64,000 nt of DNA from Deroplatys truncata. Lineage: Eukaryota; Arthropoda; Insecta; Mantodea; Mantidae. The notes below the pieces were generated by a model. The model worked only from the letters and a program-made list of their open reading frames with translations, was not told where the DNA came from and made no database searches. The DNA lies in the NCBI GenBank assembly GCA_030765065.1, contig CM060984.1, forward strand, positions 103,769,488 through 103,833,487. The letters are read 5' to 3'. Shown here in pieces: positions 6,199 through 42,280 of the stretch (the first letter of the stretch is position 1; the number at the start of each line of letters is the position of its first letter). The translations under genes were made by a program, and so were the position numbers.

Positions 6199-7072
6199 TT
6201 TTATTCCTCTACTGCGTATAGTAAGTAGGGAAAGTACTGCACTCCCCCCAAAAAAGATAGATAGCGAGATTTCAACGAAAATACATGTTTTGAGGACCCC
6301 TGAATAAAAAAAAGCATTTTTAGAAAAAGTTCCGTGTTTGTGTATGTGAATAGCATAACTAAAGAACTCAAAAGTTGGATAGATACTAAACTCAGTATTC
6401 AGGTTCAATACCTTTCAAAGGTACAACACCCAGATTTTTGAGAAAATTATCCCAGATCAGAACACACTTTACTGGAAGATTTTTAGAAATTATTGATTTT
6501 CTAAAAAATATTTGTAATGATTTTGATTAAAATAACACATATTAAAGACATTTGCCTTACAATAAAATGTATATCTTGAATTTTCTAGGAATACCGTTTA
6601 AGTGCACTTCATTGGGAATAAATTTTCCATAATCTTGTGTAACTGGAAAGCGTCAATCATAGACCCCCCCAAATAAAAGTACTATCCAAAAGATGTAGAG
6701 CTCTTTTAAACACACAATTTATTTCAAATACGTTGTTTTGTGGCATAAGCCACATGCGGTATTAATAGGTTCGAATTGTTCATTTTTTGGTCATTCTCTT
6801 AAAGTCTTGTCAATATTCAGTTGTTTCTCGCGATGGTATGGAAAAAGTATGGAATTTTAAGGCCAGCACATAGCGTCCAGTTCTTAAATATTTGACTTTC
6901 GCTGTCCCCTTTGTATCTATAATGAAATGTGTAATGTAGCTATATCTACTAAAGGTATTTGGATTAAAACGTAGTAGATAGAAAAATAAGCTGTAGTAAG
7001 AATAGTTTGTATACTCACTAATAAACGATAGAGGCTAGAAATTGTCTTATGAATGTATACATCAGATTTTTA
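6199..7072 (-). mobile_element. Family R element, full length (copy R1)
   Basis: Minus-orientation copy running from the right-end hairpin (CTCTACTGCGTATAGTAAGTAG region) to the left end (ATCAGATTTTT). The CA/GT microsatellite site has only a degenerate GTGTTTGTGTATGTG. The central part is subfamily X (CGCGA..AACTGAATATTGAC-type block near 6810-6835). See copy R9 for the family description. Confidence 0.85.
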
Positions 7073-9347
7073 CACTTTATGAGGCTTTTCTCGAAGCTGT
7101 CACATAGCGTTTTCTACAATTGCAAAGCACAGGAGCTTATAAGAGCTATTATTTCATATTAAAAAATGTTGTATACATGGTATACTTTAAAGATTTTGTT
7201 TTGATAAATACTTTTAATAAACTGTATCGCTAAACAACATAGTTATAAAATACTATATTGTGACCATAGTTTGATAAGTGAATTCTATACAATCGAGGAG
7301 AAGTTTAAAAAACCAGAGGCCAGTGGTTCCGAAAACCATTTTGCAAATAAGTGTTGTAGAGTATTTATTGCGTTGTATATATTCTAAAAGTACAAACCTA
7401 ATAAAATTCTTCAATATGCATGTCCTAATTAGAACAGCTGAATTAGATAATATGCGTTGCCACACAAGTTGATACTATGATACTGATACTATGTTGATAT
7501 CGCAGTGAAAACAAATAATTGGTGATATATTATGTACTTGGTAAACCTGGGTGTTGTACACAAGTTGTGTAATTCACTTTTATAAAATTCTTACATTTAA
7601 AAACGCTTTAAAAGTTCAATATATGTATAAGTTTTTATGTATTTTAATGCCTTACCTGATAAAACATGATTAAAATAAATATTTAAAGGGGGAAGAATAA
7701 AATAATAAAAAATACGCTTGTGCAACTTCCTACAAAGTATTAATTTTATATCATGAAAATAATCCACATCTTCCTTCATATAATGGCTGCATAAGCTCAA
7801 AGTTTATTATCGAACTTATCATTTACCTATCTCATTCATTATTTATATTATCCATCAGTTTTTATAACAACATTTTTCTTGATATTCATATCTAATACCA
7901 CAGAATGTTAAGGAAGCATTTGCAGTTTGTATTCTCAGCAATACTTCTACTACACAAAACAGGAGAGTTTTATCTCTGAATTGTTTCTCGAGAACAAATT
8001 TCAATAATTTCTTTTCCGCCGAAGAGACAAATTATACTAATAAATGACTGTGCTTTGTGTTATTGCAATACGCAACAAAACAGTTCTCTTAAAATCAGAT
8101 AATTCATGAAGTTTTACACATTAAAATATTTTGAAAATTATTTAACGCAGTTCTTTGTGGAATATGAATTTTAAAAACATTCTTTGTTAAAGAAATGCTC
8201 AAGTGCACTGAAAGTTTTCGATGGTATAGTATTCTATAGTCTTTCCCTTGACTAATGATAGAAGTTGCTATCCACACCAGCCTCTTAATGAACCATTCTG
8301 GTATTGATTTAAACTAAATTCTTGTACAAAAACATTAACTTATGAGCAAAGGAGCATAATCTCAGAAGTGAAAAAGTAATGACTGCAAAGGTATTTATAC
8401 GAATGGATATTTCAATGATCACGTGGAATCTATAAGGCTAAAAAGGCAAAAACCATGATGGGTAACTTAAGTACCCATAAAAAGGTATTTAGGCATAAAA
8501 ACGAATACTTAAGTTTTTTGAAAATATTGATTAAATTTCATCTGAAGATACATGCATCAAATTGGTTCTATAGTACTTTTGAAAAACGTATGTCATTTTT
8601 ATTGTGTTCATCACAACAATATATACAAAAGGGCCTAAAAATATGGATATAACACAGCTATTTGGTACATTCAAGTACAGTTACGTGCAAAGTTTCTTTC
8701 CGATATAGGAACGTGGCGGTTTCATTTTGTACTGAATTATTAAATAGCCCCTTCCTCTACAACTGTTTTCCGAACTATTCAAATGAGTATCCCCAGATTT
8801 AGCCTGACAAGCAACATATATTTTATTCTCAGCCATAATATTTAATACGTCACTCAGCTATCAAATAGGCCATCCTCAGTGCCATATTTACATCCAAGCA
8901 CAACAATATTTCTATGTTCGCTTCTAACCTCATGATAATTTCCAGTGGTTAACTTTGTTTCCCGAGGTTTAACTTGATTTGTTTGGTAAAAAATGTAGCA
9001 CTGTTGTGCCATTAGAAGAATAAAAAATGTTAGAAAAATATTTGTTGTCATCAAGGGGTTGGCAAAATATTTTGCATGTTAAGTACATCAACACTGCAAA
9101 AGCCTTCCTCTAACCAAATTACTTAAGATGCTACTTAACATAGGAGCAAAGGTGAAAATCAGAATAGATACGTTTCAGTAGATTATACACTTAATAGTAA
9201 GAGTTTACCTTTTTAAGAGCACAAGGGCACTCGGGGCTTATTGGAACATACCTGGAAAGACAAGAAAAAACTAATATTAGCACATAAATAAAGTAATTAT
9301 TTATCTTTAGAGAACTAAAAATTCAGATACTGATCTAAGTTCCTTTT
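7073..9347. other. Unassigned AT-rich stretch
   Basis: No recognisable repeat family member or gene across about 2.3 kb. Two overlapping antisense frames at 7253-7472 look like chance. A possible small exon and a signal-peptide-like frame on the minus strand (8854-9255) are described separately. Confidence 0.45.
8854..9054 (-). CDS. Small open frame with signal-peptide-like start, unrecognised
   Basis: The 66-codon frame starts M-M-T-T and then has a hydrophobic run (IFLTFFILLMA, residues 5-16) followed by a polar tail with two cysteines, the outline of a small secreted or membrane-anchored protein. I do not recognise it. No Kozak context or poly(A) signal was needed to find it, and AT-rich DNA makes such frames by chance. 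The alternative is that the hydrophobic run is just a translated polypyrimidine tract. Confidence 0.15.
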   Translation of the reverse strand: MMTTNIFLTFFILLMAQQCYIFYQTNQVKPRETKLTTGNYHEVRSEHRNIVVLGCKYGTEDGLFDS

Positions 9348-10195
9348 ACCTTCTATACCATCTACTTAGTAGGCAGAGGAGGTATCCCATTCCACCCAAA
9401 AATTCGATTCGTAGGTTTCACCAGAAATACATATTTTGAGGCTCTCTGAATCCAGCATTTTTAGAAAAATGTCCTTGTGTGTATGTCTGACTGTGAACAG
9501 CATAACTCAAAAACTAAATGTCGGATTAATACCAAACTTGGTATTAAAGTACAGTACCTTCAAAAGATGCGAAACTCAGATTTGTAAGAAACTCTCTCCA
9601 CTTCAAACTACCCTTCACGTGGAACATCTTTGACTTTTGAAAAATGGCTGTAACCATGATACCATGTACGATACGGTATCAAATACCAAATATCATATAT
9701 TAAAGACATATGCATGAAAAATAAAATGTACATTTTGAATTTCCGCATTTGAAGTCCTCTTCATTAGGAAGGAAGTTTATGTAGTTTTGTGTAACTGGTA
9801 AACGTTAAGTGATAAACGAAAACGTAGTACATGAAAAATGTAGATTTCTTTAAAACAAACACTTTATTTCAAATAGCTTTTTCTGTGGCATTAAGCATTT
9901 CTGAGATATCCTTTATTAATGGTTCGATTGCTCAATACCTACACTTAGCCATTTTCAGTTGTTTCTCGCTATGTCATGGAGAGTACGGAGCTTTAATAGT
10001 GCCCAGTTCTAAAACATTTGACTATTGCTACTCCCTTTGTCTCTGTAACGAAAACTCAATGCAGTTATTTCGTAAAGGTTTATCTGGATTAAAATGAAGT
10101 AGATAGGAAAATAAACTTTCGTAAGAATAATATGTAAACCCACTAATAAGCAATAGAGGGTAGAGAAAGTCATATGGATTTATCACATAAGATCT
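9348..10195 (-). mobile_element. Family R element, full length (copy R2)
   Basis: Minus-orientation copy ending at the left terminus GGTAGAGAAAGTCATATGGA. The microsatellite site reads TTGTGTGTATGTCTGACTGTG. Near 9655-9685 it has a local rearrangement with ACCATGATACCATGTACGAT repeated in part. Subfamily X centre (CGCTATGTCATGG and TCTGAGATATCC blocks). Confidence 0.85.
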
Positions 10196-10660
10196 GTAAT
10201 ACTGCAATATATTTAAGCCAAGTTACAACAATAATATAGTGGTTAGATACACGAGAAAATCTATTATTCGAAACCCAGTGGATGACAGACGGAGAACAGT
10301 TCACGCTTCACATCTGCATATGATTGGAATCACATTCCACTAAGATATGTAAATCTTCGGATGATCCATCAGCCAGGCATGAGGAGCGTGCCGTCAACAT
10401 TATCCTGTTACATTTTCGAAATCAGTGAACCACAATGATAAACGCCTTCAATTTCGCGAGCGATTTCCATTACTAATGTCCTTTGACTGCAAAAGGGAAT
10501 AACTGACAAGCTCCTTTCTGTCCACTCTGCTAGTATATTGATCACTGGCCTTTACTCGGGCTTCGTGGGGATTAATGTTTTACTTCTTAAAATAATCTAC
10601 CAATGCATCCATTTTTACTCGAGACACAAAACAATTTTGTTGCAGAGGATGCATATGAAA
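10196..10660. other. Unassigned stretch with a weak tRNA-like SINE trace
   Basis: 10238-10285 has TAGTGGTTAGATACACG followed by ATTCGAAACCC, spacing that recalls A- and B-boxes of a tRNA-derived SINE, but the rest does not match another copy here. Left unassigned. Confidence 0.3.
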
Positions 10661-10753
10661 TTAAAAAAAATCTGGTGTGATACATTCACACAACTTTCTC
10701 TATCCCCAATCGCTTATTAGTGGATACACAAATTATTCTTACGAAAGTTTATT
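10661..10753 (+). mobile_element. Family R left-end fragment (copy R3)
   Basis: Only about 90 bp of the left end is present: AAAAAATCTGGTGTGATAC, the hairpin, CTTTCTCTATC, then TTCTTACGAAAGTTTATT. It stops exactly where the oppositely oriented copy R4 begins, so it was truncated by, or recombined with, that copy. Confidence 0.75.
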
Positions 10754-11597
10754 ACTTTCTCTACCACAGTAGAGTAAGTAAGGGAAGTATTGTATTGTAC
10801 CCAAAAATTCGATACCTAGATTTCACTGGAGATAAATATTTTGAGACCCCCTGAATCCAAAAAAGCATTTTTGGAAACATGTACGTGTGTGTGTGTGACT
10901 GTAAACAGCATAACTCAGAAACGAACAGTCGGATAAACACCAAACTTGGTATTTAGGTTCAGTATCTTCCAGAGATGCGACACGAAGGTTTTTAAGAAAA
11001 TCCCCCACTCCAGAGTACCCTTTACATGGAACATTTTTCGAAAATTTTAATTTCCTCAAAAATAGCTAACGATTTTGATTAAAATATCATATGTTTAAGA
11101 TATTTTCATGACAAATGAAATATATATCCCGAATGTTCTGGGAATGTCTCCAAAAGTATTCTTCATTGTGAACGACTTTTGCATAACTGGTAAACCATAA
11201 GAGATAGACAAAGTTTTACTACGCAAAAAAATGTAGATCGTGTTAAAACACACAATTTATATCATATACGTTTTTTTGTTGAGTGAATCGTTTTCGAGAT
11301 ATTGCTTGTTATTTCCTTAAATTTTCCAATACTTGTACTTTTTCGCAAAAGGGAATTCGCTATTCATTTTTTTTTATGTCCTGGACATACAAAGAGAATG
11401 GAATGCGCCACATAGCAAACAGGTCTTAAAAGATTTGACTATCGCTTAAAGCCTGCCATATTCCCCTTGTACCTACAAGAAAATTAGCAATAAGATTAGC
11501 ATCTCAATTAACATGAAGCATATGGAGAATAAGCGTTTGTAAAAATAGTTTGTACAAGAGTAGAGGTCATGTGAGTGTAACACGTCAGATTTTTTTC
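10754..11597 (-). mobile_element. Family R element, full length (copy R4)
   Basis: Minus orientation, from ACTTTCTCTACCACAGTAG at its right end to GTAACACGTCAGATTTTTT at its left end. The microsatellite is GTACGTGTGTGTGTGTGACTG. The centre belongs to subfamily Y (CAAAAGGGAATTCG block). Its left end abuts copy R5 head-to-head. Confidence 0.88.
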
Positions 11598-12360
11598 GAT
11601 CTACTTCATTTTAATAGAAATAAAACTTTCCAGAAATAGCTGCATTACACTTTTCGTTATAGATACAAAGGGAATAGTGACAGTAAAATGTTTTAGAACT
11701 GAATGCTAAGTTCTGATCTTAAAATTCCAACACTTCCCATGACATCGCGAGAAACAGTCATTCTTTTCGAGCACTGTCGATTTTCAACTAAGTATTGAAC
11801 AATTCGAACCATTAATAACGGATATCTCAGAAATAATTGATTCCACAAAAAGTTATTTGAAATAAACTGTTATATTATAGTCATCTATATTTTTTGTGTA
11901 GTACGTTTTCGTCTATCGCTTAGAGTTTACCAGTTATACAATATTTCTTCTGAATAATGAGGACTTCACAGGCTATTCCCAGAAAATTCAAAATGTAAAT
12001 GTTATTTTTCATGTAAATGTCTTTAATATATGGTATTTTAAACACAATCGTTACAGCGATTTTTAGAAAATAAAAAAATTCGAAAATATTCCATATAAAA
12101 GGGATGGGGGATTATCTAGAAAATCTTCGTTTGGCATTTTTGAAAGGTACTGAAACTAAATTCCATGTTTGGTATATATCTGAATTTTCATTCTTGAATA
12201 CGCTGTTCATAGACACACACACGGACCTTCTTCAAAACATGTTTTTTTTTCGTATTCAGGGGGAATCGAAAACATGTATTTCTGTGAAATTTGGGTATAA
12301 AGTTTTGGGTGGAATACCTTCTCTACCTAATATGTATGTACCCGGTAGAGAAAGCAAAAA
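11598..12360 (+). mobile_element. Family R element, nearly full length (copy R5)
   Basis: Plus orientation, lacking the first ~90 bp and starting at GATCTACTTCATTTTAAT. Subfamily X centre (ATCGCGAGAAACAG). The microsatellite is short (ACACACACACGGACC). It ends GGTAGAGAAAGCAAAAA and continues directly into copy R6. It carries a 122-codon frame (12104-12472) crossing the R5/R6 border, which is repeat-derived. Confidence 0.88.
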
Positions 12361-12648
12361 TTATCTGATGTGTTACATTCACATAACTTCCTCTACCCAC
12401 TCTTCAACAAACTATTGTTTCAGAAGTTTATTTTTCTATCTACTTCATGTTAATCGAGACAAACATTTGTAGAAATAGTTTCATTACATATTAGCTTGTA
12501 GCTACAATGAGAATAGGGGAATACAGTGGGCTTAAGCTATAGTCAAACCTTTTAAGAGCTAGTCGCTATGTTATGGGTTTGAAATTCTGTTCTCTATGCA
12601 TTACTAGGGAAAAAACAACAAATAACGACTTCCCAATTGAGAATAGTA
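12361..12648 (+). mobile_element. Family R left-part fragment (copy R6), head-to-tail with R5
   Basis: Begins TTATCTGATGTGTTACATTC immediately after the R5 right end and breaks off about 290 bp in, inside the subfamily-Y block (CAATTGAGAATAGTA). Confidence 0.8.
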
Positions 12649-13171: not shown

Positions 13172-13710
13172 ACCGAGCGGGATGGCATAGGCATTCTGTA
13201 GCCCGCATTCGGGAGGTCGTGGGTTCGATTCTCGTGGACGACTTTTCTGACCTATGTTTTTTCGGAGGTTTCCCCAGGTCGCTAGTGAACGCTGGAAAGG
13301 ATCATTACATCCCCGAATTTCCTGCCCCTCCATTTCATTTCCATTCTCATCTCTCTTCACCTTTCATCTGCTTGGTTTCTTTCAGGGTTGCAAGTGTCGG
13401 CGGGAGGTCTCGGCTTGTGCATGGCAAGGGAAAAGGATGATCTAAGCAAACCTTCGTCCCCCGGACTGCGAGCGGTCTCCGGGTCCCGGCCCGGCCTCCC
13501 AGGGGGGGGGGAGGCACTAGCTACTCCAGCACCCGGAGAGTTCAAATCTGTAAACGGTAGGAACCCGTGGCTCCTGGTCCGGTCGCCTTCTCTCTCTCCT
13601 CTCACTTCATCCCTGTCTTCCTGGAGCGCCCCGTCAGGGGCCTAGGTGCAAAAGATCTGCCTAGATTAAGGTGCTAAGTCCCACTCCGCTTCTAGTCCTA
13701 TCCTATCCTG
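13172..13710 (+). repeat. Long tRNA-derived SINE (family A, copy A1)
   Basis: tRNA-like head ACCGAGCGGGATGGCATAGG with B-box GTGGGTTCGATTCTCG, then the family body (GGTTTCCCCAGGTCGC, CATCTGCTTGGTTTCTTTCA, GTGTCGGCGGGAGGTCTCGG, ATCTCCGGGTCCCGG-type blocks, CCCCGTCAGGGGC), ending in a (TATCC)n tail. Copy A2 at 42281-42816 is collinear over its whole length. A run of ten Gs interrupts it near 13502. Overlapping frames on both strands are translations of the SINE. Confidence 0.85.
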
Positions 13711-14367
13711 CATTTAATCTAGTAGATGGTGATAAAATAGGGAATAAAACTGCAAAATTAGAAATGGAGATAACATAAACCCACGTTTTAGCAAGTTAGC
13801 ATGGTAAGGTATAGTCCTTTTTTATGATTAAACACCAACAACTTGTTCATCACTGTATACATATTTAAATTCTTCACTAAAACAACTAACGCTGTGCTTT
13901 CCATTATATAGCTTATCTTCTATCTTACTAGGTTTTCAAGTAGGTTAAGTTTTAAACATGGAATGCACGTTATTTAGTGTTCTATATTAATAAGGTATTA
14001 CGAGGAACTCTTACATTTACAAAATTTGCTTGTGGATACGAAAATTCAGCTTCATTTCAACATCTTTATTCCACCTTTCCATTACGGCTTATGGAAGACA
14101 TTGCACTTTTCTACCTTCGTCACGTGACTTTGATGTTGGTTTTAAGTCACAGCATGCGAGAGGTTGGGCCATTCGCTCTCTATCTGCATACACGCTCGAA
14201 GAGGGTGATGTGATGAGGACGAGCATATGATTACGTCATGCATCTGTGACGTGAGCATGTGATGATGTAATAGGGCCATAATGTGTGAAGCTATTGTGAA
14301 ATTGAAATTATACACTGCGATAGCTTATAGTGATGTACCTTATAGTGATCCACAATAATCTATTGCA
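13711..14367. other. Unassigned stretch
   Basis: No matched repeat. Two overlapping frames at 13977-14230 show no motif. TGATGTGATGACG-type short repeats occur near 14205-14275. Confidence 0.45.
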
Positions 14368-14369
14368 TA

Positions 14370-14878
14370 CACAATTATTCAAAAATAAAGAACAGGCTTT
14401 AAATATTTACTTCTAATGAACGACAACAGATGGCGACACATGCGATACATCACTGAATAGAGAAAGGTTCAAAATGTTATCTTATGTGTTCAAAATGAGC
14501 ACCATTTGTTATGCGAGGACAACCAGTGCTTTTTTGTTTGCATACGCAACCATCTTCTACGAATTTATTGTATCAATTTTAAATCTTTTATGACAAGGCG
14601 GCTCGTTGTTGAACTTGCAATGAAATACACGCTGCAATGAAAAATTGATTCACTCTTTGCATAATTGCATAATGCAGCACACAAAACGACTTTTCCTGTG
14701 GCGTCACCATTTTCTCGTAAACAAACACAGCGCCGCTGTAGGCACCGAATGGAACTAATTGGTGGGACTTGAAATTTTGAACTTCCCTCTATTCAATGCT
14801 GCGTCGTATGTGTTGCTATCTATTGTCGTTCATTATAATGAATATTTAAAATCTGTTCCTTCTTTTTGAATAACCCTG
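14370..14878. mobile_element. Long-TIR MITE (family M1, copy a), TA target
   Basis: The right end reads CTTCTTTTTGAATAACCCTG followed by TA. Its complement matches the left end (degraded to CACAATTATTCAAAAATAAA) for about 100 bp, including TGAACGACAA.AGAT.GC.AC and TGAATAGAG..A.GTTCAAAAT. TA lies on both sides (14368-14369, 14879-14880), which fits a Tc1/mariner-type origin. No transposase. Copy b is at 16247-16732. Confidence 0.75.
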
Positions 14879-15382: not shown

Positions 15383-15975
15383 TGAAGCTTCAAACCAATA
15401 ACGAGGAATATAAAGAAACCGAGCTTCATTTATGGATGCTCTTTAACTACAATGATTCTTAGCGTCCCATTCTATATTAAACGTGAAAGACCGGAAATTT
15501 TACTCAGAGAGCTCTTTGTCAGACTTGAGATTCTTTTACGTGCCGTAAATCTACGATACGGGACTACCGGCTTTACTTCCCTTCCGAAGGAAGCCATGCT
15601 ATGCCGAAAAAAAAATCCATCGCCCTCCGCAGATCTGAACCCGCGACCTAAGGAACCGGAGCCCAGCATGGTACCCTAGGACAACGAGGAATATCTCGGA
15701 AATGGTTAACCCCACAAAAAGAATTATTTGACTTAAAATGTGCACTTCAACGAGTCTAATTTTTTTTTCCTTACGGTTCAACAGTTATTCAAAAGTCCTT
15801 CAGAATGAAGAGGACCTTAGAGGTTATTCCCAGAAAATTAAAGAATTACATTTCATTTGCTACGAAAATATCTTAAACATACGGTATTTTAACCAAAATC
15901 GTTATTCAATTTTGAAAGAATCAAATTTTTTGAAAAATCTTTCATATAAGGGTAGTTTGGGGGGATTTTCTTGAA
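15383..15975 (+). mobile_element. Family R fragment (copy R7), interrupted by a SINE
   Basis: The R sequence enters at TTCAAACCAATAACGAGGAA, is split by the SINE-B at 15412-15682, and resumes with ATCTCGGAAATGGTTAACCC through the usual CATTTTGAATTC-type and GTAGTTTGGGGGGATTTTCT blocks. It stops before the microsatellite and right end. Subfamily Y. Confidence 0.8.
15412..15682 (-). repeat. tRNA-derived SINE (family B, copy B1) with 12-bp TSD
   Basis: Flanked by AACGAGGAATAT at 15400-15411 and 15683-15694. On its own strand it has head GTCGCGGGTTCAGATCTGC, then GCGATGGATTTTTTTTTCGG, GGGAAGTAAAGCCGGTAGTC, GATTTACGGCACGTAAAAGA, and a tail AATATAGAATGGGACGCTAA. Copies B2 (47724-47987) and B3 (62912-63177) match throughout. 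The clean TSD inside family R dates it as younger than R7. Confidence 0.92.
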
Positions 15976-16244
15976 AATCTTATACAACATATTTATTGGC
16001 CTCCCACAAGTGGAAAACCAACCAGCATCACATTGAAATATAGAGCTGTTTTGTAGGTTTATATTTTTCTGGCATCGTTTTCACCCAGCAATATTCCCGT
16101 TTCAACATGTCCTCGTTGTCGGTTTTCTGTTACACTGGACGTAGTTTGAATAAACTTCGCATTATAAAAATAGTGCTTCTTAACTTTTCACAACTATTGT
16201 AAATGCTCCTGAAACGCAAACTGGTATATGCCCAGAACCTAAAA
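15976..16244 (+). repeat. Duplicated segment D, copy 1
   Basis: Begins ATACAACATATTTATTGGCC and ends ACGCAAACTGGTATATGCCC. It is repeated at 16989-17255 with few changes, each time joined to the same point of a family R fragment. Not recognised as a known element; the minus-strand 140-codon frame over copy 2 is not supported as a gene. Confidence 0.75.
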
Positions 16245-16246
16245 TA

Positions 16247-16732
16247 CAGGGTTATTCAAAAAGAAGGAACAGACTTTAAATATTTATTTCTAATGAACGA
16301 CAACAGATGGCGACGCTTGCGATACATCACTGAATAGAGGGAAGTTCAAACTTTTATTTTATGTATTCAAAATCAGCACCATTTGTTATGCGAGGACGAC
16401 CAATGCGTTTCTGTTTGTATACGCAACCATCATCTATGAATTTGTTGTATCAATTGTAAATATGTTTTATGCCGGGGTGGCCCTTTGTTGAACTTAAAAC
16501 GAAATGCACGCTGTAATGAAATAATGGATTCACTCTTTGCATACTGCAGCACACGAAACAACTTTACCTGGCGTTGCCATTTTCTCGAAAACAAACCCAG
16601 CGCCGCTGTAGCACTGAATGGAACTAATAGGTGGGGACCTAAAACTTTTAACTTTCCTCTGTTCAATAATGTTTCATATGTGTTGCTATCTATTGTCGTT
16701 CATTAAAATGAATATTTAAAATCAGGTCCTTC
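16247..16732. mobile_element. Long-TIR MITE (family M1, copy b)
   Basis: Intact left end TA|CAGGGTTATTCAAAAAGAAG, then the same interior as copy a (CAGCACCATTTGTTATGCGA, GCGCCGCTGTAG). The right inverted repeat is present (TATTGTCGTTCATTAAAATG) but the last ~17 bp (GAATAACCCTG) are missing and replaced by family R sequence. Overlapping antisense frames here are repeat-derived. Confidence 0.78.
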
Positions 16733-16988
16733 TAAATTATTTTGTGTAGCAAGATTTTGTCTATCTCTTACGGTTCATCAGTTATTCGAAAGTCATTCAG
16801 AATGAAGGAGACCTCATAGTTTATTCCCAGAGAATTCAAGATATACATTTCATTTGCTACGAAACTAAACCTTAAACATATGGTATCTTAATAAAAATCG
16901 TTATTCATTTTTGAAAGAATCAAACTATCCGAAAAAGCTTTCATATAAGGGGCAGTTTGGGGTGGGGGATTTTTTTTTTGAAAATGTT
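16733..16988 (+). mobile_element. Family R fragment (copy R8), duplicate of part of R7
   Basis: TTTTGTGTAGCAAGATTTTG through GGGGCAGTTTGGGGTGGGGG, then a T-run and the border with segment D. Together with segment D copy 2 it repeats 15735-16244. Confidence 0.8.
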
Positions 16989-17255
16989 CTTGTACAACAT
17001 ATTTATTGGTCTTCCACAGGTGGAAAACCAAGCATCAAATGGAAATATAGAGTTGTTTTTAAGGTTTATATTTTTCTGGCATCGCTTTGCCCCAGCAATA
17101 TTCCCATTTCAACTTATCCTTTATGTCGGTTTTGTGTTACATTGGCCGTAGTCTGAATAAACTTCGCATTATTAAAAATAGCGCTTCTTAACTTTTCACA
17201 ATTCATGCAAATGCTCCCGAAGCACAAACTGGTAAGCTCAAAACCTAAAATATAA
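16989..17255 (+). repeat. Duplicated segment D, copy 2
   Basis: TACAACATATTTATTGGTCT through CACAAACTGGTAAGCTCAAA, collinear with 15976-16244, including TTTTTCTGGCATCG and GAATAAACTTCGCATTAT. Confidence 0.75.
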
Positions 17256-17523: not shown

Positions 17524-19015
17524 CACTGGTGTGCATAACCTAAAGATGAATGTAATCTTCGCATGCTGTAAAACTGCCAAATAACATAATTTGACGAATC
17601 TTGAATCATACATAGAGGGACTGCTACGGTATGCTACAGTAGGTAACTAAACGAAATATACAATGAGACGAACAGAAATGTCAATTTTATTCATAGACCA
17701 TAAGCTATATTAAAGTCAATACGACATATGATGGCTCTCTAGATTTACAGAAACAGATACATGGTGCTTAAAAGAGTGTATGATCACCACGGACAGTAAT
17801 TCATGCTCTGTATCGTGCTACCATGCTGGCCACAAGGTTGGTAAGCAGTTCTTGTGGTAGGGCGTTCCATTCCTCCACCAGCGCTGTTGACAACTGTTGC
17901 ATGGTTGTTGGTGCATGTGAATGTGCTGCAATGCGTCCCCCAAAGCATCCCAGACGTGTTCGATGGAATTTAAATCAGAGGAACGGACAGGCCAGTCCAT
18001 TCGCCGAATGTAATCTCGTTCCAAGTTCGATGCGGTCGCGCATTGTCATCCATAAAAAGCCAGGGCCGACTGCACCCCTGAAAAGACGCACATGGGAAGG
18101 AGTACAGTATCACAATAACTTTGAACAGTGAGCGTACCTGTTCAAAGATTTGGAGATCGGTGCGCCCATGCAACATTATGCCTCCCCAAACCATAACACC
18201 GGACCACCAAAACGATCATGTTCAAGGATGTTTCTGCGTTCATTACGCGTTCCCACCTCTTGCCAGATAAGGGTACGTCGAAAATCACTACTTAGACTGA
18301 ATCTGCTCTCATCCAGAAGAGCACACGACCCCATTCCTCGTTGGTCCAATTTTGATGATCTTGGGACCATCGCAAACGGTGCCGCCGATGTGCGGATGTC
18401 AATGGAACGACGTACTGGCCGTCGGGCAAAGAAACCACCTCTGTGTAGTCGCCGTGCCACTGCGTATCGTAAGATTGCGTGCCTAGCTGTCCTGTTAAAT
18501 GTGGCTGCAATTGCACCCGCTGTTTGAAGTGAATCCCTTCTTGCCTGTTGCACAATGTAGCGGTCATCTGCTGCTGCAGTTGAGCGTGGTCGACCACCAC
18601 CTCCTTGGGACAGCAGTGTCTGTGGTTTGGAATGCTCCCCATGCACGTGAAACAATGCTGTGAGCAATTCCAAGTTCCTGAGCCCTTCTTCCAGTTTCCC
18701 GATGATTCTTCTCCGTGTGAGATCATCCAAATGGTGTCTATGGACCATGTTGCAATGAAGAACTCCACTGCAGTGTACCGTAATAGCTCGCTAATTGCCA
18801 CACACCGCCTTAATCTGTTTCAACTGCCCCGTGTTGCGGGACCAGACCCATTTGGCACTATAGGCTCGCTACACTCACTGCATGTGACATCCAGCTCTCT
18901 GTGTACGTGTGAGAGACCACTGACAACATGGTCCCGCACCTTCATCTATTTCCACCAGGTAGTTCATTTGTTATGTTATTTCACCCATCTCGTCCTTAGG
19001 TTTTGCACACCATTG
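17524..19015 (-). mobile_element. Tc1-like DNA transposon, near full length
   Basis: Terminal inverted repeats CACTGGTGTGCATAACCTAA (left) and CAATGGTGTGCAAAACCTAA (complement of right) are bounded by TA on both sides (17522-17523 and 19016-19017), the Tc1/mariner signature. The 1.49-kb interior holds one transposase pseudogene on the minus strand. Length, TIRs and TSD show a complete copy that decayed by point changes and small indels rather than by large deletion. Confidence 0.9.
17768..18748 (-). pseudogene. Tc1-like transposase (DD34E type), frameshifted
   Basis: Transposases of this family cut and paste DNA with a D,D,E metal-binding triad. The N-terminus (MVHRHHLDDLTRRRIIGKLE) and GGGRPRST linker are in one frame from 18748. 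The first catalytic Asp is in LDESRFSLSSD (near 18312), the second in FMDDNARPHR (near 18046), the Glu in SDLNSIEHVWDALG (near 17960), and the end ITVRGDHTLF precedes TAA at 17768-17770. The pieces lie in different frames: a shift near 18400 and back near 18320, another near 18190, a loss of several codons between the second Asp and the Glu, and an in-frame TGA near the C-terminus. All three catalytic residues survive, but no intact protein is possible. Confidence 0.92.
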
Positions 19016-19895: not shown

Positions 19896-20615
19896 TTAAA
19901 AAATCTGATGTGTTACACTCACATGACTTTCTCTACTCTTGTACAATCTAATTTTACAAACGCCTATTCTCCATATGCTTCATGTTAATCAGGATATCGA
20001 GATGTCAATCTTATTGGTAATTTTCTTGTAGATGCAAGGGAAATATGGTAGGTTTTAAGCGATAGTCAAATATTTTAACGCTGGTTGCTATGTGGCGCAT
20101 TCCATTCTCTTTGCATGTCTAGGACATAAAAAAATGAATAACGCATTTGAGAAAAAGTATAAGTATTGGAAAATTTAAGGAAATAACAAGCAATATCTCG
20201 AAAACGGTTCACTCAACAAAAGAAATGTATATGACATAAGTTGTGTATTTTAACGCGATCTACATTTTTGTGTAGTAAAATTTTGTCTATCTCTTATGGT
20301 TTACCAGTTATGCAAAAGTCGTTCACAATGAAGAATACTTTTGGAGACATTCCCAGAAAATTCGAGATATACATTTCATTTCTCATGACATTATCTTAAA
20401 CATATGATATTTTCATCAAAATCGTTAGAGCCATTTTTGAGAAAATTAAAATTTTCGAAAAATCTTCCATGTAAAGGGTAGTCTGGGGTGGGGGATTTTC
20501 TTGAAAACCTTCGTGTCGCATCTCTGGAAGATACTGAACCTAAATACGAAGTTTGGTGTTTATCCGACTGTTCGTTTTTGAGTTATGCTGTTCACACACA
20601 CAGACACACACACAG

Positions 20616-20647
<32 letters not shown>

Positions 20648-20788
20648 ACACACGGACATGTTTCCAAAAATGCTTTTTTTGGATTCAGGAGGTCTCAAAA
20701 CATGTATTTCCGGCGAAATCTCGGTATCGAATTTTTAGGTGGAATGCAATACTTCCCCTACTTACTATACGTAGTAGAGAAAGTAAAA
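19896..20788 (+). mobile_element. Family R reference copy, full length (copy R9)
   Basis: Best copy for describing the family. The left end AAAAAATCTGATGTGTTAC forms a small hairpin (ATGTG/CACAT), then GACTTTCTCTACT. The right end is a stem-loop CTACTTACTATACGTAGTAG followed by AGAAAGTAAAAA. ACTTTCTCTACT and its complement form a 12-bp subterminal inverted repeat. The centre is subfamily Y (TTTGAGAAAAAGTATAAGTA). A CA-rich microsatellite of about 61 bp (20593-20653) sits between TGAGTTATGCTGTTC and GGACATGTTTCC. No transposase or reverse transcriptase is encoded; frames of 60-107 codons around 20488-20811 include the microsatellite as (HT)n. Class unknown; the plan resembles Helentron-associated (DINE-1-like) elements. 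Confidence 0.9.
20593..20653. repeat. (CA)n microsatellite inside family R copy R9
   Basis: About 61 bp of CA repeats with CAGA interruptions every 10-24 bp. It is at the same place as the much shorter CA tracts of the other R copies, so it grew in place. Confidence 0.95.
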
Positions 20789-21616
20789 ATCTGATGCGAT
20801 CATTAACATGACTTTCCTTACCTTCTGTTATTTATTAATCAGTAGGTATACAAACCAGTATTATTAAAGCTTATTTTTATATCTACTACGTTTTAATCCA
20901 AGTAAACCTTTGCAGCTATAGCTAGATTACCCATTTCGTTATACATACAAAGAGAAGAGCGATAGTCAATGTTTAAGAACTGGACGCTATTCCCTGGCCT
21001 TAAAATTCGTACTGTTTCCATGCAAACGGGAGAAGCAACTGAATGTTGAAAGGACTTTAAGGAATGACCAAAAAATGAACAATTCGAACCATTAATAACC
21101 GATATCTCAGAAACGACTTATGCCACAAAAAAACTTATTTGAAATAAATTGTGTGTTTTAAAAATATCCACATTTCTTGTGTAATAGCTTTTCGTCTCTC
21201 GCTGAACGTTCACCAATTATAAAAGATTATACAAAATTCCTTCCAAAAGAAGAGGACTTTAAAGGCTATTCCCAAAAAATTCAAGATACACAGCTTATTT
21301 GTCATGTAAATATACATAATATTTGATATTTTAATCAAAATTGTTGGAGCCATTTTTTAGAAAATAAGAATTTTCAAAAAAATTTTCAAAAACGTTTTAT
21401 GTAAATGGCAGTTGGGATGCGGTATTTTCAAGCACCTTTGAAAGATACTGAACGTAAATACCAAGTTTAACATTTTTCCGATTTTTCGTTTTTGAATTAT
21501 GCTGTTCTTAGACACACACACACACACACATACGGACCTTTGAAATCTCGGTATTAAATTTTGGGTGGAATGCAATACATTCTCTGCCTACTATGTATTG
21601 GCAGAGAAAGTAAAAA
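20789..21616 (+). mobile_element. Family R element, full length (copy R10), head-to-tail with R9
   Basis: Starts TCTGATGCGATCATTAACAT directly after the R9 end and finishes GGCAGAGAAAGTAAAAAG. Unlike R9 its centre is subfamily X (CGGGAGAAGCAACTGAATGT; ACCGATATCTCAGAAACGAC), so the pair did not arise by simple local duplication. CA tract at 21512-21531. Confidence 0.9.
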
Positions 21617-22931
21617 GTATACGGTCAGTTTTAGACAGTAAAAAAAATGTTGAAACAAATTAGTAAAAGATTACATCGTGTGGAGTATTTTGAGTATGGA
21701 AAAATGCTGAAAACAAGGTTTAAAGTTAGGCGTGCCTATTATGTACCTGCACATTTATATCTTCAGTTAATTGGTAGTTAACAAGCCCCAAGCGGAAAAG
21801 TGTGTTTTTTTAAAGTTTGGAATTCATAATATTACATTATGGAGAATTTTAGTTTTCTAATTTTCGGAATTTTTGGCCAGATCTCACAGATGTGTTACCT
21901 TCAACAATCTCCGCAAAAAAGAGTGCTGCACTATTGTTCTAAAAGTATTACAACGATTTGTCAGTTTGCCTAAGTCTCCTACAACGGGGATGTTAATTAA
22001 TACGTTTGCTTTCAACTCGGTGTAGTTTCTGATTTTTTTAAAATAAAGTTTCGTTGTTAAACACTGTTAAGAAACACATTTACATGTCACTTTTGTAACC
22101 TTTGTGTTTTATTGAGGGGGTGTAACCCTCGACGCCGAACAGCAAACAAAGGACATGATGGAAATAAAGAATTGGCAGCTTGCACTGTGGGAGGGCTACA
22201 AATCAAGCGAAGACTGGCCGTTAAGTTTGTAGAAGCAATTTGGATTCCGACGGCAAAGAGAACAAATCGGCCAGGTAATGCGTCGCGTCACGGCGCCGAC
22301 AAGAGGCGCTGTAAACAACATAACGAGTCTGTGTAAATCACATCTGTTTAACGGTCCAGGTTCGTGCACCGCCGCAGTCACCTCTGTCTTTATTGCCCAA
22401 AACGCTTCCCCGCGACTGGAAGCACAAATTATTATACAGAGTACTCGACAGTTGTTATTGAAAGTGTTTGTTGCCCCTACCGCATGGTCCTCAACAAAAG
22501 GAAGATTTATGGTTCTATGTATCCACAACATTGCTTCTTTCCATTCATGTATTTGTTTGCATACAATATACCAATATTACTGCTGTTCCTTTGAACCAGT
22601 AAAATAGCTCAAGGATCGATTCCTGTTATATTCTCTGCTCAGTAAATCAGAAATTGTAACATGTCAGCTTCAAAATGTCCTCCTGTATTATTACACAGTG
22701 CTACATCTACTGAAAGCAATTGCCGATCAACAAAAGCAGCATTTGCTTTTCGAGAAAAAACTAATCGACCTGTTCAGAATAAATCAGACTTTCTCTCTCA
22801 TTGCCAGGAAATCACGATATGGAATTCTAGCATCGAGGTAGTTTTAATAGGGAGGGTTAGAACAACTGCTTTCCCAGGAAACTTGAGCAGTGAGATATAT
22901 GCTCTCCTGCATCATAATAAGCCGGTCCTCC
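21617..22931. other. Unassigned stretch, GC-richer in its right half
   Basis: 21617-22100 is AT-rich without recognised features. 22106-22480 has more CG dinucleotides and antisense overlapping frames (22112-22607) without motifs; it could be an old repeat or part of a host gene's 5' region. No splice structure can be defended. Confidence 0.4.
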
Positions 22932-28432: not shown

Positions 28433-29682
28433 CAGTGAAGCGTTATTTAATTTGTGTAAAGACTAATAAATGTAGTGAAGTAAAAATTATAATCTGTGTA
28501 AGCCTACATTCTCAGTCGCTCCACTCCCTGCTAAGACATTCATGTCTAAAAATAAATATTGATGCAGCCGAGACAAACATAAATATATAATATTTAAAGA
28601 AACGTCAAAATTACAAAGTTAATATCTTATAAACTTGGAGCAAAGGCCTCCGGAAAGTACATTTGGGGCGAAGGCAACCGGAAACTTTTTTCCATACGTG
28701 CGGTTGCTACTACTTCAAGTTCCGCTCCCCAACAGTCGAAATACAATACAACTCCTTCCTAACATAACCTTCTTCAGTTCGCATACCTTATTTCGAAGTG
28801 AAGAGATTCACCATAAACGGATTCACCTTTAAGACATTCATAGCCGATTTATAACGGGGTGGTGCTGCTTTGCTGAACCATTTCTTAGGTGGCGGTTGAA
28901 TGCTCTAATTGAGGCCTCATCAGGTGACCGATAGCTGTTTTGAGCACAGTATTTGCTCATACAGAGATGTTGAGCAGGGGAACGCTACCTACCTTCCCTC
29001 AAGGAACCTTCAAGAACCTGATATAGTTTTTAAAAATAGTACTTTTTATTTAATTTTTTTTACAAATAATGGTAAAAATTTAAGGTTATTGCTTTAAAAC
29101 TTTATTATTCAACTCTTAATTTATGAGAGTATGGAATATGGATATGAGTTTCTGCTGTTGTTGAAAGTAACAATTATTATATGTTTTACATGAATTAAAT
29201 GCGTACAAAAAGAGTAGAAGCGGAAGTTTTATTTACTTTATTGTTAAGTCTAACATTTATGTTTAGTACTTTCAGGTTTTTATTCTAAGTGTCTTACGTC
29301 ATAAGAATGTAACAGAAATATTTCTTTCTAATCTCTTTAATAAGAATAAAAGCCCAAACAACGAGTATTATAATTGCTTTGTTCAAACTTAAAACATTAC
29401 TGAGTCGACTTTAACATTTAATTAACAAAGAAAATAATGAAATAATTGTTTATAATAATTCCGTTGAAATAAAAGCTTTGTTGTGGAGATTACCACACCG
29501 ATTGATTTGGACGTCCAGTACAACGCCACTGTTGTTCCGTCCTTCCGCCCTTAACAGCAAACCATCAACCTGGATGCACACGGAGCAACGAGCCAAATGC
29601 CCTGGCCTATTCCATTAAGCCTAATCATAGTTGTTATAGCTATTAGCGAGTAAAATCTGCTGTAAGTATAACAATCTAAAGT
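28433..29682. other. Unassigned stretch
   Basis: 28600-29000 is less AT-rich and has small plus-strand frames (28635-28832, 28909-29097) without motifs. No recognised repeats. Confidence 0.4.
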
Positions 29683-29872
29683 AATGCATTTACATGATTT
29701 CCCCCTACTCACTGTTCTTACGAAAGCTTATTCTTCTGTCTACTTCTTTTTGATCAGATAAACTTTCATTACACAATTACTCATTTCGTTACTATTATAA
29801 CCTTCAATACAGAAGGATATAATAGTAGGCTAAAGCGATAGTCTGATTTTTAAACTTGAGTTGCGTGCCAAA
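29683..29872 (+). mobile_element. Family R left-part fragment (copy R11)
   Basis: Recognised by TTACATGATTTCCCCCTACTC, GTTCTTACGAAAGCTTATTC, GATCAGATAAACTTTCATTA and AGGCTAAAGCGATAGTCTGA, which are collinear with the first 190 bp of R. It breaks off at TTGCGTGCC. Confidence 0.7.
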
Positions 29873-30622
29873 TTGACCCTCTCCGGAGAAATCTACTTTA
29901 GGCGACTGGGCTGTACCAAAGGCAGGCTGACATGTACGGGAACAGAAGTGAAACGACTATGCTAGTGGTTCTCAAGCAGACGACAACAACAAGAAGCAAG
30001 GGCGCAGTTATTTTGAGTCACGCAGTACGTCAGGCGATTGTCGTAGTCGACTGCGCAGGCGCCGGATCAGTTCCAGCTTTCTTCAATGTCCTGTCCACAA
30101 GGCTGATCAGTCTTTCTTCGACGGCGAGCTAGGTTACGAGGAAAACAACAGGACAACGTTTAGACAGAAGGCATTCAGGACGGTATTCTCTAAATTCGTT
30201 TTTGGCTTAACGTATTCAAAATTCTCTTTAGTAATTTTTCACCGGGAAAAGATTAATCGTCTGAACTATAAACTTATTGAGGTTAGAGTTGAAATATATC
30301 GGTAAACGTGAGAGCATGAAGCCATTCTGTAATTATTGTAATTTAATTTAAAGCATTGAAGAATGTAAAGAATGGTGAACGAATAAGGGTTTTGTAAATT
30401 GTAATTATCTATGTTATTGAGCTGTGAGTTTATTAAATGGAAGAAATTCGGCTTCTTGATTAATTTATGGAATACGTTTTAAAGTAGCAATCTGCTATTA
30501 TTCCTAATTTAATCCACTTCCTCTTGGGTCAAAAGAGCACGTTTCAGTTGCTATGTGATAACTTTGAAGTTCCATGTTCCTTGCATTGCCACGATTAAAA
30601 ACGAATAGACACATACCACTAG
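29873..30622. other. Unassigned stretch with a CG-richer core
   Basis: 29930-30130 has more CG dinucleotides and a 66-codon frame without motifs; it could be a small promoter-like block. The rest is AT-rich. Confidence 0.4.
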
Positions 30623-31453
30623 GAAAAATCTGATGTGTTACACTCACATGACTTTCTCTACTCTTGTACAAACTATTTTTACAAACGCTTATTCTCCATC
30701 CACTTCATGGTAATCGAGATAAACATTTCCAGAAACTATCTTATTGTTAATTTTCTTGTAGATGCAAGGGGAATATGGTAGGCTTTAAGCGATAGTCAAA
30801 TCTTTTAAGAGCTGGTTGCTACGTGGAGCAATTCCTTCTCTTTGCATGTCCAGGACTAAACAAAACGAATAACGAATTCCCATTTGAGAAAAAGTATAAG
30901 TATTAGAAAATTCAAACAAATAACAAGGAACATCTCGGAAATGGTTCACTGGATAAAAAATGTATATGAAATAAATTGTACGTTTTAACGAGCTCTTACA
31001 TTTTTTTTGTAGAAAAAGTTTGTCTGTTACGATTTATCAGTTATACAAAAGCCATTCAGAAAGAACTTTTGGGGATATTCCCAGAAAATTCAAGATATAT
31101 ATTTTATTTGTCATGAAAATATCGAAAATATATGATATCTTAATCAAAATCGTTACAGGCATTTTTGAGAAAATCAAAATTTTCGAAAAATGTTCCATAT
31201 GAAGGGTAGTCTGGGGTGGGGGATGCTCTTGAAAAGCTTTTTATTGTATCTTTGAAAGATGCTGAAACTAAATACCAAGTTTGATATTTATCCAACTTTT
31301 CGTTTTTTAGTTATGGTGTTCACAGACCACACACACGGAGCTTTTTCTAAAAGGGGGACTTAAAACATGTATTTCCGGTGAAATCCCGGTATCGAGCTTT
31401 TGGGTGGAATGCAATACTTACTCTACTTACTATGCGTAGTAGAGAAAGTAAGA
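30623..31453 (+). mobile_element. Family R element, full length (copy R12)
   Basis: AAAAATCTGATGTGTTACAC to GCGTAGTAGAGAAAGTAAG. Subfamily Y centre (CATTTGAGAAAAAGTATAAG). The microsatellite is only ACCACACACACGGAGC. It is among the closest copies to R9. Confidence 0.9.
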
Positions 31454-31726
31454 AAGTATTTGAAAATTCAAACCAAAAACAAAGAATATATCTCAGAAAC
31501 GGTTAACCGCACAAAAAGTTATTTGACATAATATGTGTGCTTTAACGAGATTTACATTTTTTGTGTAGTAAGATTTTGTATCTCTCCTACGGTTTACCAA
31601 TGATATAAAATTCATTCAGAATCAAGAAGACCTCACAAGCTATTCCCAGAAAATTATAGATATGCATTTTATGTCATGCAAATGTCTTAAATATATAGCA
31701 TTTTAATAAACATCCTTAGAGCTATG
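31454..31726 (+). mobile_element. Family R internal fragment (copy R13) joined to R12
   Basis: Immediately after R12 the sequence re-enters R in mid-element at GTATTTGAAAATTCAAACCA (subfamily Y) and runs to TCCTTAGAGCTATGAACC. It is a second, head-to-tail unit lacking both ends. Confidence 0.8.
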
Positions 31727-32422: not shown

Positions 32423-33548
32423 GCTCAAGAATGAGCAAATCAATTGAAGCCATCAGTTCCATAAGAACACAATTCTACTTGTGCAAGTTTTGAGATAATT
32501 TAAGAAAACCTAATACATTTTCAAACTGAGCACTCGTTGGATTATTTTGAATGAAACACTTTTGGTAAGACTTTTTAATTATACGTAGTATATAGTGTGT
32601 AACAAACTAAATAAAATGAAAGACTTGTGTTGTTATGAAAATCATTTATATATTTTTAGGACCAAACAATAAATGTAATTGATTTTCGGGTCGTTGGCTA
32701 AAAGAAATATGTAAATAACATGAAAAAATGGAGACCATTATATAATCATATTTTTTTCAGTAATGCTTTATTTATCCCAATTAAAACATGTATATTAATA
32801 ATACCTTAGTTTATACAATACATGGAAACATTAATTATTAATGGAAATCCAATATCTCGTGTATGGATCACATCAAAACCCACTTCTTAATTCGAGTCCC
32901 AAACCTCCCTCCCTGATTATTCAACATTATGTATCACTGTGATCCTGCCTAAATTTATCTTTAAGATTTTGAAAATAAGGACGCTTTTCGCAAGAACTGA
33001 AAAATGATATTTAATAATATCTTTAGTTTTAGCTACTTTCAGTTGAGTTTCAGATTCATATGTTTTTTTTTAACTGATCAAACTTTACTTTTCCTTTCAT
33101 AAGGAATGTTTCACTTCCTAAGCCACTGGTTGTTTTGCTTGCACTTAAGATGCTTGATCTATATTTTGTTATTTTGTAACTGATCACCTTACATTTGTCC
33201 TTTTTCTTTGCAATGAGAACGGGTTCCGTGATTTTAGAGTATTTCTTTAATGCAAGTAAACTTATTCTTGGGTGTATTTGTCTTCCATTTATTTCGTAGC
33301 ACCGGTTCATCACTATCTAAATCACATTATCAGTTAATAAAACTGGTGAACATCTTCACTCCGTTACACTCGTATCAGCTGCAATTTAATAATGAAGACT
33401 GCTAGGTTCCTGCCGTGCGGCAACTTCCATACTTATCGCATCACGCATCACGCTCTAATCTTATACTACTATCTAACTTCCATATCAACACAGGTTCCGG
33501 ACTTGTGTAGTTTCACAATATGGAATAACATTCGAAAGCGGAATGAAT

Positions 33549-34349
33549 AAAAATCTTGTGCGTTGCACTAACATGAATTTCTCCACTAATTCTTCTTACA
33601 AAAGCGTATTATTCTATCTACTTATTGTTCACCTAAATAAACTTTCTATTCAGATTTTCGCATTTCTTAGTAGAATGCAGTAGATAAAGTCAGATTTTTA
33701 AAGAGTTTGTTGCTAAGAGATGAAATTCCATGCTCTTTGCAAGTAATAGGACTTACCAGTTGAGAAATGTAAAATTCAAATCAATAACAAGAAATATCTC
33801 GGAAATTGTTTACTCCAAAAAGGGCTTTATCTAAATAAACTGTGCGTTTTAAGCAAATCTAATTCTTGTGTACAAAGATTTTGTCTATTTCTTAGGGTTA
33901 ATCAATTATACAAAAGTAATTCAGATTTAACAGCACTTTACATGGCTATTCGTAGTATATTCAAGATATACATTTTATTTGTCATGTAAATATCTTAAAC
34001 ATGTGGTATTTTTAATCAAAATAATTAGAGCCCTATTTTAAAAAAGTAAAAAGCTTTGAAGACTTTTCTGTGTAAAGCGCAGCTTGGGGTGTGGGTTGTT
34101 TTCTGAAAATCTTCGTGTCATACCTTTGGAAGATACTGAACTTAAGTACCAAATTTGGTGTTCATAGGACTTTGGGTTTGAGTTATGCTGTTCACGATAC
34201 ACACACACGAACCATTTTCCTAAAAATCCTCCTTTTTTAGCTCAGGGGCTTCAAAACACGTGTTTCTGGTGAAGTCTCACATTGTATCTTTGGGTGGAAT
34301 ACAAAACGTCCCATATTTATTGTAGACACATAGTAGAGAAAGTAAAAAT
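33549..34349 (+). mobile_element. Family R element, full length (copy R14)
   Basis: Starts AAAATCTTGTGCGTTGCACT, ends TAGTAGAGAAAGTAAAAA. Diverged, subfamily Y-like centre (ACCAGTTGAGAAATG, GGAAATTGTTTACTCC). The CA tract is GATACACACACACGAACC. Confidence 0.85.
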
Positions 34350-36104
34350 ATCGAAATGTCTCGTTTATTGTTGAGGTTTGTGGAAAATGCTACATGGAGA
34401 AATGTATAAGCGCAGTACTACATAAAAGTATTGTTATTTACAAAATGTTCATAGAATGAACACTTAATATGTTGCAACAATTCTTCGTTACTATTATTCC
34501 ATTAGGTAACAATTTGATCTTTTAATGGTATATCCTGAACACTGCGGTGTAGTTTCGAACCCATAACAAGCATAAGGAAGAAGCACACGTTTGTGTACCA
34601 TTAAATCTTTTATTTATTTTTTAATGTTTATTAATATAGCAGAAAGAGTACCGAATTTTATTACCGATTTTCAAAACATCGCATGAAGTACATGTTACGC
34701 AGTGATAGAGGTGAGGAAGAGATACAAAGAGAGTTAGATAGAGTGGAAAGAATAGGGGAAAGAGTAATCTCTGCAATTAAGGTGAGTGGAACTGGAATTT
34801 GATAGTTTTAAATATTTAAGTGGTTGCTTGTGATCTCTCTGATGCAGCTGTCTATCCTTGCGTCTAATCTGTGGTCCGGAATTTAATCACGATTGGATCA
34901 AGCTGAGCGTTTTACTTCGGCTTTACCCGAGTCTCTAGGACAACTGCCGGGTATTCGGGTAGTTTGAACATGTTTCATTCCCACAAAAACTTACTTGTGC
35001 ACTAATAAACTGAAACTGAAAAATGGGGGAAGGTATTGCTTGCCACTCTTGCAAAATGCGCATTTTTAAGGCTACCCTATAATTAATTTTTCAAGAAGAT
35101 TTCGAAAACAAAAATCATTTCTGTAAATGTTTCATAGATACAAGTCTCAAACATTCTGGAAGTAGGATTCTATTGCCTTATCAACTTTTGGAAATTTAAA
35201 TGACCAAACGCTACGTTTTTAAAAATTCTGCGTAGGCGTGTGGAAATAGATGTGCCACTTTAAAACTTGATTCTCTCTTGGTTTCCAAAATTTTTGCCAC
35301 TTAACTGTTTTTTATTGTGCACTTTTTGTTCTATTTCTTACAAACCTTCATTTTAGCTTCTTTGAAGCTGAATGAAGATATCTATACAATTTTTTGTATC
35401 AAGTATAGCTTTTTTTAAATTAGGGCTTAAATCATTTAATACAAGTTGACTTATAAAATTTAAAGCTATTATCTACTTCATGATTTTTCCACTGAAATTT
35501 TTAGTGTTATAAAAAATGTGATCTTAGATTAATAACACCATATTAGTAAAATAATATGCAAAATTCAAAATTATATAAGTTTAATTTATATATGGGCCAT
35601 TTCACATTTGACTCAATTTTCATTTTTTGAAAGTTATTTTCTTGGAGAATTAGCTACCTGGGACTATGAAGATTAATTTATTGATATAGCTGTATCGGAG
35701 AGATCTGGTTAACCAAGTTGGTTGAATGTTTAGAAATTAACAATGTCAGTACACTTAAACATTCACATTTCCACCTTGATATTTAAACAGTTATTTTAAT
35801 TTCGAATAATAAATGCTTACTTGCAACTAAGCCAAATTTTAGGCAATTATTTGCAAAAATGATAAAGCAAGTGATATATGGAATGTTTTCAGTTTGGCCG
35901 TGGATGAGACTGGAATTTACAGTACAAAGAAAATGACACATTCGTAGTTAGCGTAAAATATAAATATATTATTTAATAATACGTTAAGTGAAACTCGTGG
36001 AAGTAATAAAATGCGTGCAAAGCATAAGGCATTTTTATAATTAATTACTCACCATCTTTAAATGTTTGTTAAATGTGAATTTGATTCCAAAGCATAACGG
36101 CAGG
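34350..36104. other. Unassigned AT-rich stretch
   Basis: About 1.75 kb with no recognised gene or repeat and no frame of 60 or more codons on either strand, so it is unlikely to hold a large exon. Confidence 0.45.
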
Positions 36105-38935: not shown

Positions 38936-39277
38936 GATTTTAAGTGTTGTAATCATATTGTTTTACGAAAGCATATTGCTTATATGATAATACATTATTA
39001 TTATTATGATTATTAGTATTATTAAATACAACTAAAATGTTCAATATGGCGAGACATGATTAATCTATACATTGCATCATGGGAGGGATTATACAAGAAA
39101 TGAATAGTAAATTATTTAATAAGACCGTTATAATCCATATGTTCAAAGGCAAAATAAACAAGTTGTAAGTCTGAATAGCATGAACAAATTAAGCAATAGC
39201 AATAAATTACCGTACGATAAAATGTATTTTAACTTACATCCTCAACCTTTGTTTCCAATAAAACTGAACTTGCAGGC
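38936..39277. other. Unassigned AT-rich stretch
   Basis: Contains a short TTA-rich run near 38996-39025; otherwise nothing recognised. Confidence 0.5.
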
Positions 39278-39412
39278 AATCGCGAGAAACGACTGAAAAT
39301 CGATAGGAGATAAAAAGAATGACAAAGTTTCGAACAAATCGAAACATCAATAACGGATCCTCGGAAATCACTTGTGTCCCCCCAAAAAAAACTTGGAATA
39401 AAATGAGTGTAA

Positions 39413-42276: not shown

Positions 42277-42280
42277 TTTA

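Follow-up and report, generated by a model that had tools for sequence, protein, structure and literature searches.

The described elements which come closest to the repeat family analysed here, designated R, are DINE-1/INE-1 of Drosophila and other non-autonomous Helentrons (HINEs). DINE-1/INE-1 shares with R subterminal inverted repeats (subTIRs), a partial inverted repeat nested in the 5' subTIR, a microsatellite within block A and, as a candidate in R, a palindrome after the 3' subTIR, as well as insertion at TT without clear target site duplication (TSD), the lack of an open reading frame and a high copy number (PMC2374699, PMC4067079). The two elements differ, however, in their subTIRs, which comprise 12 bp in R but 13 bp of different letters in D. 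melanogaster DINE-1 (ATACCCGTTACTC), and in their microsatellites, which consist of a GT repeat in R and of (CCGT)n(CTGT)n in DINE-1. Furthermore, R does not contain central repeats and its 3' stem measures about 5 bp compared to 7-11 nt in DINE-1 (PMC2374699). The HINEs of the mite Metaseiulus possess, like R, subTIRs of 12-15 bp at a distance of 2-4 nt from the 5' end, and both these and the Culex HINEs have a 3' palindrome, of which R has a candidate counterpart, and share T-rich target sites with R, the boundaries of the Culex elements consisting of 2-5 Ts (PMC4067079). In contrast to those of R, the subTIRs of the mite HINEs are palindromic and devoid of the inverted repeat, and 38-60 bp separate the 3' subTIR from the end of the element compared to about 22 nt plus the T-run in R (PMC4067079). 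Non-autonomous Helentrons of the Pacific oyster are dispersed, as is R, yet they carry satellite-like tandem arrays (PMC7492417), of which R has none beyond its microsatellite. As set out below, R very probably represents a non-autonomous Helentron of the DINE-1 structural type, its sense strand being the reverse complement of the one assumed in a preliminary description of the locus.

Abundance and arrangement of R copies

A profile built from 12 copies of R (threshold E<=0.05) matches 26 segments in the whole window, i.e. the complete stretch of DNA analysed, and covers 13,426 of its 64,000 bp (21%), with no match in any of three first-order Markov shuffled sequences of window length. Once split segments are merged by hand, these 26 segments collapse to 22 copies, which reproduces the 22 copies on both strands and the share of about one fifth of 64 kb given in the preliminary description. 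BLASTN with 19896-20792 as query returns 35 pieces, one of them the query, distributed over both strands. Two of the fragments, 15683-15981 and 16731-16994, have a duplicated flank in common and may be one insertion in origin; the number of insertions may therefore be 21. The stretch 19896-21616 consists of two abutting copies, the first of which is referred to as the focal copy. All copies, together with the parts of the focal copy, are given below with the analyses on which they are based.

19897-20789 (-): focal R copy, group R1 (younger), 5' end at 20789 (profile, end listing, tree)
20785-20789 (-): 5' T-run of the focal copy, common to the 3' T-run of its older neighbour 20782-21619
20773-20784 (-): 5' subTIR of the focal copy, ACTTTCTCTACT (motif count, end analysis)
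20750-20765 (-): partial inverted repeat pairing with the 5' subTIR, 5' terminal hairpin (folding, arm pairing)
20593-20653 (no strand): (CA/GT)n microsatellite, in the position of the DINE-1 block A1/A2 microsatellite (PMC2374699, excerpt)
19926-19937 (-): 3' subTIR, sense strand AGTAGAGAAAGT (motif count, end alignment)
19908-19924 (-): 3' palindrome ATGTG..CACAT, then CAGA and T-run (stability no better than shuffles)
20782-21619 (-): older R copy (R2 group), head to tail with the focal copy (profile, tree)
10754-11593 (+): R1 copy inserted into an older R copy (ends from the restored empty site, within T-run ambiguity)
10661-12360 (-): older R copy split by nested 10754-11593 (profile, consensus, junction alignment)
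12363-12643 (-): 3' part of an R copy, abutting the 5' end of copy 10661-12360 (profile, end listing)
30617-31454 (-): R1 copy within an older R copy (profile, consensus, junction alignment)
30547-31725 (-): older R fragment divided by 30617-31454 (profile, junction alignment)
6197-7074 (+): R copy (profile)
9340-10204 (+): R copy (profile)
15683-15981 (-): R fragment (profile)
16731-16994 (-): R fragment, in the duplicate of the stretch 15770-16246 (profile, self-comparison)
29669-29867 (-): 3' fragment of R (profile)
33544-34350 (-): R copy (profile)
36668-37462 (+): R copy (profile)
39270-40113 (-): R copy in two pieces, intact 5' end (profile, end listing)
41080-41220 (+): R fragment (profile)
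41950-42277 (-): 5' fragment of R (profile)
43531-44238 (-): R copy (profile)
52432-53256 (+): R copy (profile)
54570-55295 (-): internally deleted R copy, two segments (profile)
59860-60640 (-): R copy, ends degraded (profile, end analyses)
63749-63994 (+): R fragment at the window edge (profile)

Two pairs of head-to-tail neighbours are present (19897/20782 and 11592/12363) and the fragment pair 15683/16731 was spread within a local duplication, as would suit a satellite or segmental repeat dispersed by unequal exchange rather than by transposition. R copies, however, are found on both strands, two of them interrupt older ones, and the two focal neighbours do not pair up in the tree. Moreover, self-comparison of the window (17 rows) reveals, bar 15683/16731, no repeat common to the flanks of two R copies. 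An origin by unequal exchange is thus scarcely credible.

Self-similarity of other kinds is present in the window as well. A local duplication of about 490 bp with 84% identity (15770-16246 / 16767-17252), which includes R fragments, is interleaved with a second one of ~500 bp (14367-14863 / 16244-16733), and a further dispersed repeat of about 530 bp is found with 73% identity at 13198-13709 and 42319-42810.

Orientation and end structure of R

When read on the reverse complement, R displays, in this order, a T-run, the 12-bp subTIR, a 5' hairpin, a GT-rich microsatellite, the opposite subTIR, a 3' palindrome and CAGA-T(n). This corresponds to the series of features published for DINE-1 (PMC4067079, PMC2374699), and according to Thomas et al. 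Helentron-associated elements follow the same scheme (PMC4067079). Since both the order and the orientation of the features then agree with DINE-1, we reversed the sense of R relative to the preliminary description, which had read the element backwards. In the sense direction, the 5' end is made up of a T-run, ACTTTCTCTACY and, as judged by eye, a partial inverted repeat of this motif 7-14 nt further on, while the 3' end comprises GGGTAGAGAAAGT, a short palindrome of the ATGTG..CACAT type, CAGA and a T-run. In general form, the ends read T(n)-ACTTTCTCTAC and CAGA-T(n).

The reversal also relocates two structures which had been placed at the wrong end. The stem-loop CTACT..AGTAG, formerly assigned to the right end, corresponds to the 5' inverted repeat, and the small hairpin formerly seen at the left corresponds to the 3' palindrome. 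Likewise, the microsatellite is not central, as had been stated, but is situated ~150 bp inside the actual 5' end. A GT-rich stretch is present at this distance in 7 of 12 copies, the adjoining anchor not being found in the other five. In the focal copy the microsatellite amounts to 61 bp, and tandem repeats inside R are confined to it (20593-20653, 39915-39967).

The constancy of the ends had been overstated, as the exact end motifs TCTGATGTGTTAC and GTAGAGAAAGTAAAAA each occur only three times in the window; ACTTTCTCTACT is found twice on the plus and three times on the minus strand. A perfect inverted repeat of at least 11 bp between the 50-base ends is present in only three of the 11 two-ended copies (12, 12 and 11 bp; lengths reached by 0, 0 and 1 per 300 random pairs). 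In the remaining eight, the inverted match extends over 5-7 bp and is equalled by 53 to 265 of 300 random pairs. With up to three mismatches allowed, the 5' subTIR can be recognised in 10 of these 11 copies; 2-5 Ts precede it in nine, and at least three Ts follow the 3' CAGA-like motif, again in nine of 11.

Across 15 copies, including 43531 and 59860 whose arms are poorly anchored, the arms of the 5' hairpin pair in 163 of 195 cells, a value equalled by 31 of 1000 arm swaps (mean 156.2, sd 2.9). Covariation in this hairpin is hence marginal. Folding of the 5' end of three copies against shuffles gives z values of -1.91 (weak), -4.76 and -3.98. The 3' palindrome is no more stable than shuffles in any of three copies (z = -1.03, -0.49 and -0.62); its ATGTG..CACAT-type form is in place in several copies and decayed in others.

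The plus strand of R terminates in GTAAAAA, so that the element might be regarded as a SINE-like retroposon possessing a short AAAAA tail and inserting into A/T-runs. Yet, an A-run is present at the opposite end of R as well, and a search of 12 copies in both orientations with loose motifs revealed no pair of A-box and B-box spaced by 25-70 bp. In addition, no TSD beyond T/A is observed in 11 copies, and the tRNA matches of the window (38576-38645 and 38824-38898) are located outside R. With neither Pol III boxes nor a TSD to be seen, a SINE-like origin is very improbable.

The two tRNA-like genes themselves are covered by an 87-bp pair of 100% identity (38552-38638 / 38801-38887), an arrangement which probably reflects a recent local rearrangement. 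It is accompanied by a 46-bp inverted match (38503-38548/38888-38933).

Target sites, nested insertions and the head-to-tail pair

The boundaries of the 11 two-ended copies have, one single-base match apart, nothing but T-runs in common, and random pairing of flanks from different copies yields similar T-run matches. A clear TSD, named in the preliminary description, along with a DDE transposase in a full-length relative, as an argument against its own assignment, is not present: no duplication beyond T is observed in these 11 copies, as far as words touching the T-runs are concerned. The 11 copies are not all independent because the tandem pair has one T-run in common, and they include 59860-60640, whose 3' end is mis-anchored in this test and whose 5' end is degraded.

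The comparison of empty sites, already proposed in the preliminary description, becomes feasible by means of copy 10754-11593, which interrupts the older R copy 10661-12360 on the opposite strand. When its flanks are joined, they match the R consensus with no gap across the junction, and the older copy is cleanly restored at TTTATT^TTTC. Among the eight possible splits of the seven 3' Ts, the one attributing three Ts to the target scores best (168 compared to 155-163), so that about four Ts were brought by the element or some were duplicated. The insertion thus targeted a T-run and reveals no duplication beyond T; since solely Ts are in question at the restored site, Ts alone may have been duplicated. 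The second nested copy, 30617-31454, splits an older fragment whose parts join with a 5-column gap, the junction not being fixable to the base.

A duplication of TT or of a T-run would be part of a MITE-like reading, in which R is a cut-and-paste element with subterminal inverted repeats mobilised by a DDE transposase; such a reading is considered for DINE-1 by Yang and Barbash (PMC2374699). R does possess inverted subterminal repeats, and TTTTT on both sides of 4 of the 11 two-ended copies is readable as a duplication. The flanks of different copies, however, share T-runs about as often, and the target restored at 10754-11593 is complete save for the Ts in question. Furthermore, the 3' repeat is not terminal but is followed by about 22 nt plus the T-run, and a fixed TSD is not discernible, as no word beyond T but one base is shared. 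We consider it improbable that R is a MITE-like element.

Pairwise identities and a tree were obtained for 12 of the 22 copies. The identities range from 56% to 91%: the youngest three copies (19897, 10747, 30617) are mutually 83-91% identical, with the focal copy sharing 90.7% identity with 10747-11599, while all other pairs show 56-74%. The R family is mostly old. The tree separates the 12 copies into two groups with a support of 100/99 but leaves several of the inner forks unresolved. The two partners of the head-to-tail pair are 67.6% identical and belong to different clades. Both the tree and this low identity argue against a recent tandem duplication as the origin of the pair 19896-21616. 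Given that the partners are members of different groups at 67.6% identity, the pair most likely formed when the younger copy integrated into the 3' T-run of the older one.

All three of the youngest copies sit in or against older R copies. Tested against the availability of T-runs, the chance of this is 0.020-0.028 depending on which of three T-run target definitions is used (0.006 uncorrected), a figure obtained post hoc and from three copies; the signal for self-targeting is weak. That the terminal T-run of R constitutes a preferred landing site, and that head-to-tail arrays of HINEs arise from successive insertion instead of rolling-circle read-through, is a rather doubtful proposal. The pair does exemplify that separate insertions can yield head-to-tail copies. 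As Thomas et al. have already reported that distantly related Helitrons may directly adjoin (PMC4067079), it provides an illustration of this and not a new principle.

Coding capacity, class and proposed mobilisation

The view that R is devoid of a transposase is borne out by the comparison of 10 R-derived ORFs with Pfam, which yielded no transposase and nothing better than E = 0.036; three of them gave matches below the cut-off (E = 0.036-0.084), none of which is credible. Among the 40 ORFs compared out of 149 in the window with a length of at least 70 aa, no Pfam match to Rep/helicase was obtained. The best Pfam match among these 40, to HTH_Tnp_Tc3_2 (E = 5.8e-05, below the curated cut-off), is located outside R at 18179-18790 (-), and five others (E = 0.036-0.099, below cut-off) were taken as chance.

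By eye, the sequence at 18179-18790 (-) looks like the relic of a Tc1/mariner-like transposase. A 221-aa ORF at 46268-46930 (-), which has no Pfam match and no relative in viral contigs, likewise resembles by eye the terminal part of a reverse-transcriptase ORF of the non-LTR type.

Searches with three R motifs against viral contigs, with two against genome contigs and, by BLASTN, with R against phage records gave no match. As these collections are not meant for animal genomes, this says little about the distribution of R. The letters of the subTIR led, judging by titles, to no transposon paper in the full-text literature, and R was not encountered by name among the matches listed from the Helentron/HINE literature.

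R exists as many non-coding copies and displays 12-bp subTIRs, a 5' inverted repeat and insertion into T-runs, as is characteristic of DINE-1-like HINEs. To these is added a microsatellite of the block A type, a feature of DINE-1 which other HINEs show in some copies. The assignment to DINE-1/HINE elements suggested in the preliminary description gains support from the feature order on the reversed strand and from the empty site at a T-run lacking a clear duplication. The block following the microsatellite may resemble the core of Drosophila DINE-1. R is an ordinary kind of element which most likely belongs to the known DINE-1-like HINEs.

By analogy with this family, R, which carries no gene, would depend on the Rep/helicase(/endonuclease) encoded by an autonomous Helentron at another genomic location, a protein which would act in trans and recognise the ends of R. 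Copying would then proceed in a rolling-circle-like, copy-and-paste manner, stopping at the 3' palindrome, and the new copy would insert between two Ts without target duplication. Now that R has been given a likely class, a sense strand and ends, a search for its autonomous partner can start from the correct terminus.
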